A model generated the notes under the pieces. The model did not search any database. It was not told the DNA's origin and saw only the letters and a list, made by a program, of their open reading frames with translations. Shown piece by piece: positions 9,610 to 15,396 of a stretch of DNA of 64,000 nucleotides (positions within the stretch are counted from its first letter, which is position 1; each line of letters opens with the position of its first letter). A program made the position numbers and the translations under genes. Origin of the DNA: Enterococcus dispar ATCC 51266 (GTDB lineage Bacteria > Bacillota > Bacilli > Lactobacillales > Enterococcaceae); the NCBI RefSeq assembly GCF_000406945.1, contig NZ_KE136354.1:1022101-1086100 (forward strand), given 5' to 3'.

Positions 9610-11061
9610 TTAAGAAATCTGTAAACGAATCTTTTGCTCTTTTTGTTTTTCTTTAAAAATGTGAAATAAGAAGTCATCGGTAGCATCAAATGATCCTTCC
9701 CCTTCCACAATCCAATATTGATAATTATTTGCAGGCACTAAAGAAGCTGAGCACGTAATAATTGCATCGTATTTTTCATTGGAAGCTGTATTCATCAAAG
9801 AATACTCCACAAAAGGTAAATCTTCAATTCGTTTTATCAAAGAATACAAAAGGAAATGGTTGGGAAAACCAATAATACCCACTTTAATTTTTTCCGTTTT
9901 TTCACTTCGTTCCACCTGTGGTAAGCTTACCAAAGTCAAAAGATTAATTAAGTCATCACTTTCTTCAGTATCCAAGACATTAGCGATATAACCTTGTAAA
10001 ATTTCATAGTTTGGATGTTGAATTTTTAAACTGTCCAAAATAAAATCCAAATTTTTCGGCGCTTTTCCTTGAAATAACTGTTGTCGCAAGAAGATAGTTT
10101 GATAATTTATTAAGAGTAATTCTTGTTTACTGCGAGAAAAATCTTGAAAATAAGGCGCCATTTTTGTCAAAAAGATCTTGGCTTTTTCTTTTGTTACAGT
10201 CAAATTTTTATAATTTTTTCTAACATAAGGTAAACGCGGATCATTGTCTGAAAAATATTGGGGCCAATAAAAAATCATATAAGCTACAAAATTAGCCTCT
10301 CTTTCGCGATATGTTTCCGCTACACCACTTTGACTCAATTTTTGTTTAAAACGTGCGTTTAGTGCTGTCGGATATAAGAAATGGTTAATTTCAGGTTCAT
10401 CTACATAATAACCCATACTAGTACGCAATAAACTAATTGCCTGGTAAAAAATAAATTCTCTTTGCTCAAAATATTTCAAATACATTAAATCATTTTCATC
10501 AAGGAGCGTATTTAAATCCATATTTTGTTTCTCAAAATATTGAAACAACTCCGTACCAAAATCAACCATCCAAAAAAAGTTAAAATACATAATTCTAACT
10601 AATGCTTCACGTCCAGTAACATCCATTTGTAAACAATTTAAACGAATTCCTTTATCTTTCAAATAAGCGACTAAAGGCTTCAAGCGGCGCATCAAAGAGG
10701 ACTGACTGAGTTCAGTTAATCGTCCAAACTCTTTTAGATCCATTTGCGGTTGTAACAATGTCGCCAACAAAACACGATAAGGAACACTATTTTGTAGAAG
10801 AAATTGACGATAACTATGAAGTTTTGGCAGATTCCCATCAATTTGAATTTTTTCTTTTTCAGTGAATAGAACATAACCTGTCTCTAAATCTATTAAATCC
10901 TGATTCATTTGCGTCAATAAATTAGCCGTTTTGATATGAGAAAAACCGGTATATTTTTCAAAATAATGAATTGGATACAATCCTCGATCTAAGTCCAACA
11001 TATGTTTAAATAACATAATCTTATTCTGTGCTGGATCATCTAATAAAATATCTTCTAACAT
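9610..11061 (-). CDS. Mga/AtxA-type transcriptional regulator
   Basis: This protein of 483 residues has the layout of the Mga family: an N-terminal helix-turn-helix (residues 15-65, HYFEKYTGFSHIKTANLL), a second winged helix (about 100-140, LKEFGRLTELSQSSLMRRL), a long helical PRD-like middle, and a C-terminal EIIB-like part starting near residue 385 (KVGIIGFPNHFLLYSLIKR). Such proteins sense PTS phosphorylation and control virulence or sugar genes. I cannot identify phosphohistidines with certainty. It sits beside ptsHI-clpE and is divergent, over 840 bp, from the VTC-DUF4956-lipoprotein operon, a possible but unproven target. The E. faecalis neighbourhood appears similar. Confidence 0.75.
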   Translation of the reverse strand: MLEDILLDDPAQNKIMLFKHMLDLDRGLYPIHYFEKYTGFSHIKTANLLTQMNQDLIDLETGYVLFTEKEKIQIDGNLPKLHSYRQFLLQNSVPYRVLLATLLQPQMDLKEFGRLTELSQSSLMRRLKPLVAYLKDKGIRLNCLQMDVTGREALVRIMYFNFFWMVDFGTELFQYFEKQNMDLNTLLDENDLMYLKYFEQREFIFYQAISLLRTSMGYYVDEPEINHFLYPTALNARFKQKLSQSGVAETYREREANFVAYMIFYWPQYFSDNDPRLPYVRKNYKNLTVTKEKAKIFLTKMAPYFQDFSRSKQELLLINYQTIFLRQQLFQGKAPKNLDFILDSLKIQHPNYEILQGYIANVLDTEESDDLINLLTLVSLPQVERSEKTEKIKVGIIGFPNHFLLYSLIKRIEDLPFVEYSLMNTASNEKYDAIITCSASLVPANNYQYWIVEGEGSFDATDDFLFHIFKEKQKEQKIRLQIS

Positions 11062-11900
11062 TTTATGTCCCCTTTTAAGTTTATATCCTATGATAGCACA
11101 AATGTGATTTATTTTGCTAGATGATTATGTTTCACTAAAAAAAATTCTCAATTTCTATTGGTTATAAAAGCTTTTTTGCATTTTATCTACCTTTTAAATT
11201 ACAAAAATGGTTTGAGGCAAATTGAAAAGACACTGGGTAGATAAACAACACGACATCTTTATCTCTTACATCAAACTCTGCAAATTCACTCTTTTGGGTA
11301 GTCGTCGTATTGAAGATGGAGTGTCCTCTTTTGCATCAATTTCTCTGTTTTTACCTTACTTGATTATGCAAAAAAGGGAGAACCAGTCTGAAGTAAAATT
11401 CTATTTTTATATAATTTTTTAATACGAAATTTACACCCTAATTCACTCATCCAAACATCTATTAACTATTAGATATCCGCGGTAATCTCTTACCGAGCAT
11501 CTCCATCACTATTCTTTGAAAAGTAGAAAATCAATCAACATCTTGCTACTTTAAAAATCATAACTTACTTTATAACCCGCGGAGCTCTCCTCTTCTTTGA
11601 GAATTATTCCTTCTTCAGATCCAATTTCGCCCGTCGTCTTACCATTTCGTTATTCTATCGACAACTTGTCTTATCACTACTTTTTAGACATTGGTCAATT
11701 ATACTTTCTCCATCCAATTTTCTTAATAATAAAATTAGCAACATGCCTCAGAATGAAGGATTTTGTCTACTCTTCATCTTCTCCAAAAAAAAGATTCGAC
11801 CAGTGGTATAAAAACAAGTTGCTAAATTTCAGCTTTTAATTTTTAACTTTCATTTATGCTAACTTTGCTAATCTGTTGTTGAGATGAAGGAGGTTATAGT
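11062..11900. other. Long intergenic stretch with decayed coding traces
   Basis: These 840 bases between the divergent regulator and VTC genes hold no intact gene. Rightward frames 11222-11422 and 11597-11839 lack Shine-Dalgarno sequences and recognisable motifs. A short leftward protein-like trace is listed separately. Promoters for both flanking genes must lie at the ends. A hairpin GGTAA-TCTC-TTACC occurs near 11482-11496. Confidence 0.5.
11551..11649 (-). pseudogene. Possible remnant of a decayed small gene
   Basis: Read leftward, 32 codons without a stop give a peptide containing GEIGSEEGIILKEEE, then SAGYKVSYDF and a stop. The even, charged composition looks like the end of a real protein. 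An in-frame stop immediately precedes it and several more lie further upstream, so no functional gene remains. I do not recognise the family with confidence. Confidence 0.25.
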
Positions 11901-12653
11901 ATGAAATTGAAAAATACATTTCAAAGACGAGAAATAAAATATTTATTAACGTATCAACAGTATGAAGAATTACGAGATAAAATGACACCTTTTATGGCAG
12001 AAGACCAGTATGGATTACATACGATTCAATCATTATATTGCGATACTCGTGATTTTTCGTTAATTCGGCAATCGATTGAAAAACCTATCTATAAGGAAAA
12101 ATTTCGCTTGAGGAGTTATGGTACGCCTACTGCGGATAGTCTGGCATTTTTAGAAATCAAAAAGAAAGTAAAGAAAGTGGTCTATAAGAGACGGCTAGCA
12201 ATTCCCTATCAGATGGCCAAACATTATCTTGAATATCCACAAAAAATTCCATGCAAGACGATTCAAGAGCAACAATTAATGAACGAAATTCAGTATCTTT
12301 ATGCCGGAAAAAATTTGGAACCAAAAGTGCTGATTGCCTATGATCGTCGTGCTTTTTTTAGTCAAAAACCTGAACTTGAAGATTTTCGTATCACTTTTGA
12401 TTTTAATATTCGCTATCGCGATAAGGACTTGGATTTAGCTTTAGGCGATTTAGGAGAACGTATAGCGCCTGAGATTGACGTATTGATGGAGGTAAAAGCT
12501 TTAGGAGCATATCCGTTATGGTTCAGTCATCTCTTAGCAAATTTGAAGATTTATAAAGGATCATTTTCGAAATACGCACAGATTTACCAGCGCGTGCTGT
12601 GGCCTAAACAAGCAATGAATGTAAAATTAGGAGGAAAAAAATATGTTGTCTAG
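11901..12653 (+). CDS. VTC-domain polyphosphate polymerase family protein
   Basis: This protein of 250 residues has the triphosphate-tunnel fold pattern of the yeast Vtc4 catalytic domain: basic strand R10-E11-K13, KEKFRLR (K67, R69, R71), LEIKKK (E85, K87), YKRR (96-98), YDRRAF (R149, R150), MEVK (E197, K199) and KGSFSKY (K219, S223, K224). These correspond to the phosphate-binding and metal residues of the family. There is no SPX domain and no membrane segment. In yeast the domain makes polyphosphate from ATP and passes it through membrane subunits. Here the next gene, overlapping by 11 bp, encodes a membrane protein. AAGGAGG lies 7 nt before the ATG. The product polymer is inferred. Confidence 0.85.
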   Translation: MKLKNTFQRREIKYLLTYQQYEELRDKMTPFMAEDQYGLHTIQSLYCDTRDFSLIRQSIEKPIYKEKFRLRSYGTPTADSLAFLEIKKKVKKVVYKRRLAIPYQMAKHYLEYPQKIPCKTIQEQQLMNEIQYLYAGKNLEPKVLIAYDRRAFFSQKPELEDFRITFDFNIRYRDKDLDLALGDLGERIAPEIDVLMEVKALGAYPLWFSHLLANLKIYKGSFSKYAQIYQRVLWPKQAMNVKLGGKKYVV

Positions 12654-13323
12654 TTTATTAGTGGAACAAACAAGTGAAACAGTCACGTTAATTGATTTAT
12701 TACTTTGTACGAGTGCTTCGGTATTATTGGGGCTCTTGGTGGCGTTGATTCATATGTATCGCAACGTTTACACCAAAAATTTTGTGATTACTTTAGCGGT
12801 GTTACCTGTTCTCGTACAATTGGTTATTATATTGGTCAACGGTAATCTCGGAACCGGTATGGCGGTATTAGGAGCCTTTAGTTTAATTCGTTTTCGCTCT
12901 GTTGCAGGAGGAGCTCGTGAAATTACAAGTATCTTTTGGTCAATGGGCATCGGTTTAGCTACTGGTATGGGTTATATAGGCTATATTGTCATTTTCTCTA
13001 TTATCACAAGTATCTTGGTTATCATTCTACAAGGAACCCGCTTCGGTGAAAATAACAAAGTAGCAGAACGTGAAATTAAAATCACGATTCCTGAAGATTT
13101 GGATTATCCAGAACTATTTGATGATATTTTTGAAAAATTTACTTATCAATACTCAATGGAATCTGTTCGTACAACTAATATGGGCTCTTTGTACGAACTA
13201 CGTTATCGGCTGAAATTGCGAGATGTAGCATTGGAAAAAAATCTATTGGATGAATTACGTGTACGTAATGGTAATTTACCAATTGTTTCTGGTAAAGTCG
13301 CAACAGCTAAAGATGAATTATAG
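12643..13323 (+). CDS. DUF4956 family membrane protein
   Basis: This protein of 226 residues has hydrophobic segments at about 17-38, 46-66 and 100-130 (probably two passes), a conserved loop GAFSLIRFRSVAGGAREI (78-95) and a soluble C-terminal domain from about 140. The loop and layout match DUF4956 proteins, which often pair with VTC-domain genes. Its start overlaps the VTC gene by 11 bp with GGAGG inside that gene, so the two are translationally coupled. By analogy with yeast Vtc1 it could carry the VTC product across the membrane; this is inference. The lipoprotein gene follows after 11 bp. Confidence 0.8.
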   Translation: MLSSLLVEQTSETVTLIDLLLCTSASVLLGLLVALIHMYRNVYTKNFVITLAVLPVLVQLVIILVNGNLGTGMAVLGAFSLIRFRSVAGGAREITSIFWSMGIGLATGMGYIGYIVIFSIITSILVIILQGTRFGENNKVAEREIKITIPEDLDYPELFDDIFEKFTYQYSMESVRTTNMGSLYELRYRLKLRDVALEKNLLDELRVRNGNLPIVSGKVATAKDEL

Positions 13324-13334
13324 GAGGAATAACT

Positions 13335-15206
13335 ATGAAAAAAATATTATCTACGCTTTTAATTTCAAGCGCTATATTAGTAGTGACTGGTTGTGCTACT
13401 GAGAATACGGCTACGAAGGCTACCTCTTCAGTGAACGCTAGTACCACTTCCAATACCGCTACCTCTTCAACAGGAATGACACAATTAAGTACGGATGAAA
13501 CAACCAAATATGGTACCTACGATGAGGAAGATTTTGATACTGGCTATGATGAAGCTACGAGCACCAAAATCCAATTGGATGGCACAAGTGCAACCATTGA
13601 GGGAGATGGAGCGAATGTGAATAAAGAAACGGTCACAATCTCTTCGGCCGGAACGTACGTTTTAAGTGGAAATTTTAGCGGACAAATCCTAGTGAGTGCG
13701 ACAAACCAAGATAAAATTCATCTTATACTAAATGGTGTCAAGATTAAGAACGAAGGCTCAGCACTCTATATCGAACAAGCGGATAAAACCATTGTCACTT
13801 TAGCAGATGGCACAACCAATACCTTAACAGATAGTACCAATTATACGTTTGCTACAGGTGAAAATGAACCAGATGCCACACTTTTCAGTAAAGACGATCT
13901 AACGTTAAACGGAACAGGAACGTTAGGTGTCACGGGGAATTATAAAAACGGTATCCGTGGTAAAGATGATGTGATAATTACTGGCGGAACCTATAATATC
14001 ACTGCTAAGAATACAGCGATTAAAGCTAAAGATGGTCTATCAATTGCTGCAGGAAATTTCGATTTGACTACTTCTGAAGGTGATGGTCTGCAAACCAATA
14101 ATTCGACCGATACGGATAAAGGCTGGATTGCTATTGACGGCGGAATTTTTAAAATTGACGCAGGACGTGACGGCATCCAAGCTGAAACAAATTTGAGCAT
14201 TCGGACTGCCACGATGACAATCAAAACAGCAGATGGTGCTACTAGTACGGATTTGGATACCGAAGAAAGCTACAAAGGACTTAAAGCTGGTAAGGCGATG
14301 CACGTAGATGATGGGAATTTCACTATCAATAGTGCAGATGATGCCATGCATAGTAACGATACAATCACGATTGACGGTGGTACGTGGACATTGGCAACAG
14401 GAGATGACGGCATTCACGCCGATAATGAATTGACTCTAAATGACGGAAATATCACGGTTAGTCACTCGTATGAAGGCTATGAAAGTGCTGTAATTACATT
14501 CAACGGTGGTACGCATGTCATCCATTCAGATGATGATGGTGTCAACGCGGGTGGTGGTAGTGATACAGCTGAAGAAACAGGTATGTTCGGTTCAGATAGT
14601 TTTGGTGGCTCTGAGAGCGGACCTGGCGGAGGCGACCAGGCAGACGATAGTAAGAAAATCATTATAAACGACGGAGCCATTACCGTCCATGGGGAAGGAG
14701 ATGGTTTGGATAGTAATGGAAATATTACTATGACAGGGGGCACAGTTTATGTAGATGGGCCAAGCGGCGGCGGAAATGGCTCCTTAGACTACAACGGAGA
14801 TTTTCTTCAAAACGGCGGTGTCTTAATTGCTACAGGTACAGCCGACATGGCGCAAACGACCAGTACAGATTCTAAACAAAAGGGTTTAGCCCTTTACCTT
14901 GACAATACGCAACAGGAAACTGTTGCGTTTCAAATTGGCGATACCATTTATGGTGTGTCCCCAGAAAAATCATTTGCCTTTTTATTTATTTCAACGCCTG
15001 AAATGAATGATACAAATAGTGTGACAATCACATTAGGTGGTGAAATTTCTGATACAAAAAATATCGCAACAGATGCTTCGGCTGGCGATACAAAACTTGG
15101 TACTTACGACTTAGCCGATACAATTACTTCAGTAGACCAATCTGGGAATGCTGTCAGTGGAAATCAAATGGGAATGAGTATGACGCCTGGCAATGGTGGA
15201 CGTTAA
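13335..15206 (+). CDS. Carbohydrate-binding domain lipoprotein (Cthe_2159-like beta-helix)
   Basis: This 623-residue exported protein has a lipoprotein signal with lipobox VTGC (Cys20), then a Thr/Ser-rich spacer (21-55). From about 75 to 480 it repeats short strands such as GTLGVTGNYKNGIRGKDD, DGLSI, DDAMHSNDTITI and DGIHADNELTL. This is the right-handed beta-helix pattern of the Cthe_2159 carbohydrate-binding family, which binds acidic polysaccharide. A Gly/Ser-rich acidic insert lies near 405-440. AGGAGG sits just upstream, 11 bp after the DUF4956 stop, so it is the third gene of one operon. Acidic Asp clusters may bind calcium. A strong terminator follows. Confidence 0.82.
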   Translation: MKKILSTLLISSAILVVTGCATENTATKATSSVNASTTSNTATSSTGMTQLSTDETTKYGTYDEEDFDTGYDEATSTKIQLDGTSATIEGDGANVNKETVTISSAGTYVLSGNFSGQILVSATNQDKIHLILNGVKIKNEGSALYIEQADKTIVTLADGTTNTLTDSTNYTFATGENEPDATLFSKDDLTLNGTGTLGVTGNYKNGIRGKDDVIITGGTYNITAKNTAIKAKDGLSIAAGNFDLTTSEGDGLQTNNSTDTDKGWIAIDGGIFKIDAGRDGIQAETNLSIRTATMTIKTADGATSTDLDTEESYKGLKAGKAMHVDDGNFTINSADDAMHSNDTITIDGGTWTLATGDDGIHADNELTLNDGNITVSHSYEGYESAVITFNGGTHVIHSDDDGVNAGGGSDTAEETGMFGSDSFGGSESGPGGGDQADDSKKIIINDGAITVHGEGDGLDSNGNITMTGGTVYVDGPSGGGNGSLDYNGDFLQNGGVLIATGTADMAQTTSTDSKQKGLALYLDNTQQETVAFQIGDTIYGVSPEKSFAFLFISTPEMNDTNSVTITLGGEISDTKNIATDASAGDTKLGTYDLADTITSVDQSGNAVSGNQMGMSMTPGNGGR

Positions 15207-15207
15207 T

Positions 15208-15396
15208 TTAAAAGAGGCTGTGACAAAAATTTGTCACAGCCTCTTTTAGTTTTTTTCTGATGACAACATTTTGATGCGCTAGTAAAGTAGCCTGCCATAT
15301 TATCAATTTACTCCGATAATTTTTAATCGTTATTTTGGAGAAGCCACGCATGGCGATGTCCAAACAAAACTCTTCTATTCCTTCATTCCAGTCCAT
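15208..15396 (-). pseudogene. Remnant of a tyrosine recombinase N-terminus
   Basis: This frame of 62 codons starts MDWNEGIEEFCLDI and continues RGFSKITIKNYRSKL. That is the pattern of the SAM-like core-binding domain of phage-type integrases (EF......G.S..TIKNY...L). Similarity ends near residue 32; the rest runs into the terminator of the neighbouring operon. No catalytic Arg/His/Tyr part exists. AAGGGG lies 9 nt before the ATG. I read it as the stump of a lost mobile element. Expression of a 62-residue peptide cannot be excluded. Confidence 0.5.
15210..15247. terminator. Terminator of the VTC operon
   Basis: Perfect 18-bp arms (15210-15227 and 15230-15247) enclose a 2-nt loop, with A-rich and T-rich ends. 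It starts 4 bp past the lipoprotein stop and overlaps the end of the leftward integrase remnant. Confidence 0.92.

Follow-up and report, generated by a model that had tools for sequence, protein, structure and literature searches.

What does a bacterium do with a relative of the yeast polyphosphate polymerase that is encoded beside a membrane protein and a surface lipoprotein? The question is raised by three consecutive genes of Enterococcus dispar ATCC 51266, encoding a VTC-domain protein, a DUF4956 membrane protein, and a Cthe_2159-type lipoprotein, in a 64,000-nucleotide stretch of contig NZ_KE136354.1 (positions 1,022,101 to 1,086,100; hereafter the window). A sequence-only reading had proposed that the three synthesize, export, and capture a polyanion. 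Of this, the fold and active site of the VTC protein, a constant membrane partner, and a secreted, acidic partner of the beta-helix type were borne out by our analysis, and one of the listed active-site residues, K219, was not. We tentatively favor, at a probability of about 0.4, a polyphosphate synthesis and translocation machine formed by VTC and DUF4956, with a surface partner that can be swapped.

A constant pair of VTC and DUF4956 genes

Two surveys, covering 295 genomes of the order and 368 of the phylum, show that VTC and DUF4956 are arranged together beyond chance. In the order, VTC is found in 101 genomes and DUF4956 in 103, with all 101 common to both; the two genomes with DUF4956 only are G081, where the match lies near a contig start, and G262, where it is below cut-off. 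The earlier reading had named rare adjacency of the families elsewhere as an outcome that would speak against it, and the opposite was found: 113 of 114 VTC matches in the order have DUF4956 at most 600 bp away, the exception (G274) carrying the two on separate contigs. The same 56 genomes of the phylum carry both families. Of the 66 VTC matches there, 61 have DUF4956 as a same-strand neighbor, which lies downstream in 54 and upstream in 7. The five others comprise G443, where about 2 kb separate the two genes, G369, where they are on two contigs, an incomplete second copy in G576, and two fragments in G613. In the union of the surveys, all 155 VTC genomes carry DUF4956. Both families are also present in 3 of 14 control genomes (Bacteroides ihuae, Corynebacterium glutamicum, and Methanosarcina acetivorans; presence scored only). 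The genus is represented in the survey by four more genomes, none of them with VTC, DUF4956, or Cthe_2159.

A scan with a DUF4956 alignment supplied a second sample, referred to here as the named loci: the best 80 out of 579 that were confirmed, a total that is not exhaustive. This sample is biased towards window-like sequences. All 80 have a VTC open reading frame (ORF) in the flank, 78 of them on the same strand, and in 69 the frames overlap in the order VTC-DUF4956, as counted from the longest possible start, which overstates overlap. The order is reversed in L091, and no natural VTC-DUF4956 fusion occurs among the 80. The clearest exceptions to adjacency are two Coriobacteriaceae metagenome-assembled genomes (L071 and L077), in which VTC lies 3-4 kb off on the strand opposite to DUF4956. 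In a Christensenella metagenome-assembled genome, a single 676-aa frame (L061:3981-6008) joins a histidine kinase, its HATPase cut short, to VTC, and may represent a frameshift or a true fusion. Because the pairing is constant and the frames overlap, the two proteins likely form a complex.

The VTC protein itself matches its Pfam family at 3.8e-42 (144.9 bits, against a curated cut-off of 23) over residues 8-230 of 250. It is basic (pI 9.54), and no further Pfam family was found in it at E up to 1, neither SPX nor the transmembrane domain that the eukaryotic polymerase carries. A phmmer search with the single sequence reached Vtc4 only at 0.041, a match that a profile search resolved, and the folds nearest to its triphosphate-tunnel fold are Vtc chains, not other tunnel enzymes. 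Yeast Vtc4 polymerizes phosphate from nucleoside triphosphate. The earlier assignment of a VTC polymerase fold stands on the Pfam match, the nearest folds, and the mapped Vtc4 active-site residues, which are kept. In an alignment (A4) of the window protein with the proteins from 64 named loci out of 80, excluding ORFs that were truncated or over-long (a further alignment, A3, comprises the window and 59 loci of the 80), R69, R71, K87, E197, and K224 are invariant in all 65 sequences, R149 is conserved in 64 (one X), and S223 in 63. K219, counted by the earlier reading in a full tunnel set, is K in only 14 and P in 41 of the 65, and thus falls outside the conserved set. The correspondence of E197, S223, and K224 to Vtc4 rests on a weak second segment of the profile alignment. 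Judging from this homology, synthesis of a phosphate chain from a nucleotide is likely.

In one alternative, no free polyphosphate is formed: at the membrane, the VTC protein would pass nucleotide phosphate on to a lipid, polysaccharide, or protein of the envelope, and DUF4956 would present this acceptor. Such a scheme could explain why E11, K65, K67, and K89 are invariant in the bacterial proteins and differ in Vtc4, and why polysaccharide, acyltransferase, and CotH genes lie beside the pair in the CotH-type stretches described below. Given the retained tunnel residues mapped from Vtc4 and the closeness of the fold to Vtc chains, we regard it as quite improbable.

The DUF4956 protein as conduit or sensor

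That the second gene encodes a membrane protein coupled to the first by an 11-bp overlap was confirmed. The protein matches DUF4956 (PF16316) at 1.2e-15 (58.1 bits, cut-off 30.6), and its model has five helices (16-131) followed by a C-terminal ACT-like domain (141-218); for a homologue, four transmembrane segments have been predicted (PMC12345266). The DUF4956 profile resembles that of MgtC/SapB (PF02308) over 192 aligned columns, which would span a transmembrane core and a C-terminal ACT-like domain, the comparison alignment comprising the 22 of 25 ORFs that passed a motif filter; no direct match of the protein to Pfam MgtC was found at E up to 1. A Foldseek search with the model found nothing at E <= 0.001 in either PDB or BFVD, and phmmer with the single sequence against PDB gave nothing meaningful. 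As the matches of a second fold comparison span only residues 138-226 and leave out the transmembrane part, we do not claim a new fold.

Several observations weigh against a role in translocation. The K and R residues conserved at 80% or more in the transmembrane part (R40, K45, R83, R85, and R92) lie in helix ends or loops only, so that no conserved basic residue is found within the helices, whereas the yeast VTC pore is lined by basic residues (PMC9911596). The ACT-like domain of the model suggests sensing, and MgtC has been described as an ATP-synthase inhibitor acting on PhoR (PMC12345266). In Streptococcus intermedius, loss of the DUF4956 gene led to more Pel and to a drop in aggregation exceeding one half in one medium, and the mutants reported there as changed in aggregation or Pel do not include the one deleted for the polymerase (SIR_1593) (PMC12345266). 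This asymmetry could come from a toxic stuck chain or from a separate regulatory role.

Such a role, with which the MgtC and ACT-like resemblance also fits, is the core of a second alternative: VTC would work in the cytosol, making polyphosphate or a short chain of phosphate, DUF4956 would be an MgtC/ACT-type membrane sensor controlling it, and the pair would tune the phosphate or energy supply for envelope polymers with no export. It is favored by the domain make-up, the helices lacking basic residues, and the shifted Pel level of the mutant, and also by the 29 named loci out of 80 in which a response regulator and a histidine kinase are encoded as a pair near the operon (L032 and L035 included; the OmpR-type response regulator and histidine kinase families were checked in L032 only). 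A pure regulator, however, would be expected to part from its enzyme somewhere, and none of the 155 VTC genomes is without DUF4956; the commonest third gene, moreover, is secreted and points outward. We consider this explanation doubtful.

The surface partner and the proposed machine

The third protein is, as the earlier reading held, a lipoprotein of the Cthe_2159 type, beginning with a signal and the lipobox VTGC, matching the family (PF14262) at 1.2e-90 (303.8 bits, cut-off 25.8), and having a solved relative in 4peu (5.8e-35). The family binds calcium, as this protein may. With 88 D and E against 33 K and R, such an acidic lipoprotein could hold a polyanion only via cations, which counts against capture.

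Co-occurrence with VTC holds for DUF4956 in every VTC genome and for the third gene in part. Among the 114 VTC matches of the order, Cthe_2159 lies within 5 kb of 70 and CotH of 14, using 96 Cthe_2159 matches (weaker partial ones omitted), which cover 90 of 94 positive genomes among the matches listed, and 21 of 37 CotH matches (16 weak ones omitted). Of the 70, 44 are cases of a same-strand Cthe_2159 gene downstream, 23 of a divergent gene upstream, and 3 of a same-strand gene upstream. Two further observations go against the favored reading: 30 of the 114 have neither family within 5 kb among these matches, a count that includes contig breaks and fragments, and most of the other close downstream genes in the named loci fail a secretion test. 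There Cthe_2159 occurs in 59 of 80, 57 times directly downstream of DUF4956 on the same strand and in 54 of these at most 150 bp away; of these 54 close genes, 43 encode proteins with a motif resembling a lipobox, and for 48 a crude test finds a secretion segment. The other genes at most 150 bp downstream are four response regulators and nine others (one being the VTC gene of L091), and all four of the former and eight of the nine latter fail the secretion test, the protein in L096 appearing lipoprotein-like by eye despite this test. In several of 19 inspected stretches with neither family (L137-L155), the gene directly past DUF4956 is unrelated and lies on the other strand, and the pair can thus stand alone. 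In three Listeria species (L036, L037, and L038), it is followed by a protein of about 300 aa and no Cthe_2159, with a beta-lactamase-fold match in L037.

The lipoprotein could instead be a merely co-regulated adhesin for plant or host polysaccharides, unrelated to the product of the pair. For the founding protein of the family, binding of both cellulose and polygalacturonic acid has been reported (PMC6712302), and 27 of the 96 Cthe_2159 matches lie away from VTC or in VTC-free genomes. Yet 80 of the 90 genomes with such matches also hold VTC, compared with 101 of 295 overall, and the position directly after DUF4956 in 57 of the 80 named loci also argues for a link, so we find this explanation unlikely.

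CotH partners were inspected in ten stretches plus L156, whose gene order and gene lengths we take to be those of a Pel-type locus. L167 has genes in common with L156 on both its upstream and its downstream side. CotH occurs with a HEAT-repeat protein and a GT2 glycosyltransferase in L161, and LRR-Fn3-CotH proteins are encoded in L162 and L165; an MBOAT acyltransferase is encoded both in L160 and in L163, the latter also having an AlgX-like protein below cut-off. VTC-DUF4956-CotH is also present at loci that, within the stretch fetched, have no homologues of the other L156 genes. These go against a published statement that no such trio turned up outside the Pel locus (PMC12345266), and non-Pel CotH blocks are already published at least as NELoc-2 of Clostridium perfringens.

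We therefore return to the favored machine, in which VTC and DUF4956 would be two subunits. Anchored by the transmembrane bundle and ACT-like domain of DUF4956, the tunnel enzyme at the cytosolic face would polymerize phosphate from nucleoside triphosphate, as fold and residues suggest, and R83, R85, and R92 at the probably cytosolic helix ends may take the chain and guide it outward. Outside, a swappable surface protein would handle the product, or the matrix the product enters, here the acidic beta-helix lipoprotein and elsewhere a CotH-type protein beside polysaccharide genes. The outward direction is suggested by the secreted Cthe_2159 proteins, by the description of CotH as secreted (PMC12345266), and by the yeast precedent. 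The window's genome has no PPK1, PPK2, or Ppx-GppA match, which leaves VTC as the only recognized candidate if this genome makes polyphosphate. A bolder version, which we hold to be very improbable, would have an obligate machine extrude polyphosphate made from cytosolic ATP through an MgtC-fold channel, the chain being held by calcium on Cthe_2159 lipoproteins and, in CotH-type loci, serving a secreted kinase as phosphoryl donor outside the cell, where ATP is lacking.

On the favored reading, a route like that of eukaryotes may allow polyphosphate synthesis in a Gram-positive genome that has no recognizable PPK. The gene pair itself is found in many Bacillota. Polyphosphate at the surface would matter for biofilms, metal binding, and host contact. 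Through the pairing, an MgtC-like family so far uncharacterized also gains a concrete partner along with a substrate that can be tested, and bacterial VTC proteins become linked to loci for surface polysaccharides.

The gene block and known systems

Three genes separated by an 11-bp overlap and an 11-bp gap and ending in a shared terminator, as described earlier, were verified from the ORFs and the hairpin (Table 1).

Table 1. Features of the three-gene block (window positions)
Feature	Position	Strand	Description
Shine-Dalgarno-like run	11887..11893	+	AAGGAGG before the VTC start, read in the sequence
VTC-domain protein	11901..12653	+	250 aa, predicted polyphosphate polymerase, triphosphate tunnel fold
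VTC/DUF4956 overlap	12643..12653	+	11 bp of overlapping reading frames
DUF4956 membrane protein	12643..13323	+	226 aa, MgtC-like
Cthe_2159-type lipoprotein	13335..15206	+	623 aa, lipobox VTGC at Cys20, pI 4.11, four D-G-type motifs
Terminator-like hairpin	15208..15249	+	intrinsic type, 19-pair stem, T-run

A GGAGG run lies 5' of each of the three starts. An 18-base arm of the hairpin has 2 copies in the window against 0.01 expected; scanner totals for the window are at chance level (2 terminators against 3.0 in shuffles, 16 promoters against 15.7), and no promoter is claimed since that count does not exceed the shuffles. The three genes behave as one unit: L157, a congeneric genome, has them together without the window's neighbors. 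By tblastn, the Mga-type regulator, clpE, prfC, and the other neighbors had no match there in 15 kb, nor in the 6-kb flanks of L032, L033, L034 (Tetragenococcus halophilus, a food relative carrying the block), L035, and L078. That regulator (9610-11061, minus strand; Pfam 1e-10 for the Mga domain) is divergent from the operon and matches the AcpB/EbpR/MafR NCBIfam model below its cut-off (59.3 against 130 bits). We rejected a conserved tie between it and the block, as tblastn found no match to it beside the block in these six relatives. Right past the terminator, a 48-aa open stretch (15253-15396, minus strand) resembles, below threshold (E 0.12), the N-terminal domain of phage integrases and is a possible recombinase remnant.

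Much of the background is already in print, namely the families, the Pel-linked trio, and the C. perfringens block (PMC7112168, PMC12345266, PMC2879425). The Pel papers list the polymerase, the DUF4956/MgtC-ACT protein, and CotH together (PMC7112168, PMC12345266), which weakens the novelty that the earlier reading saw in a bacterial version extruding such a chain and holding it on the surface. Our literature search did not find the pairing at this scale or the form with Cthe_2159, nor any article naming "VTC domain" with "Cthe_2159" or with "DUF4956", an absence that is weak, as subscription literature lay mostly outside the search. Of other VTC reports, one deals with the eukaryotic proteins (PMC10657179), and in Clostridium thermocellum a VTC gene is mutated, in or just upstream of it, in evolved or engineered ethanol strains, with no function given in the parts available (PMC10503014, PMC7063780).

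Among known systems, the yeast complex of Vtc4, Vtc3, and Vtc1 (PMC9911596) shares the tunnel polymerase fold, the active-site residues, and a membrane partner beside the polymerase. It differs from the bacterial pair, in which no SPX is seen, the transmembrane helices belong to a separate MgtC-like protein, and no basic pore lining is seen. MgtC/SapB proteins may be alike in architecture to DUF4956, which differs by its place beside VTC and by the missing direct Pfam match. The Pel accessory genes SIR_1592-1594 have the same two core families side by side and an extracytoplasmic third protein (PMC12345266, PMC7112168); there the third is CotH, with adjoining Pel genes, while the block in the window has the Cthe_2159 lipoprotein and its genome has no CotH match. 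In NELoc-2, each VTC gene is followed by a gene for a product of 222-226 aa annotated as tubulin/FtsZ and placed at the cytoplasmic membrane (PMC2879425, PMC11677781), which we infer to be DUF4956. NELoc-2 then departs from the block in the window, continuing with genes for CotH, a 685-aa protein, a HEAT protein, and a glycosyltransferase, in the same order and with similar lengths as in L161.
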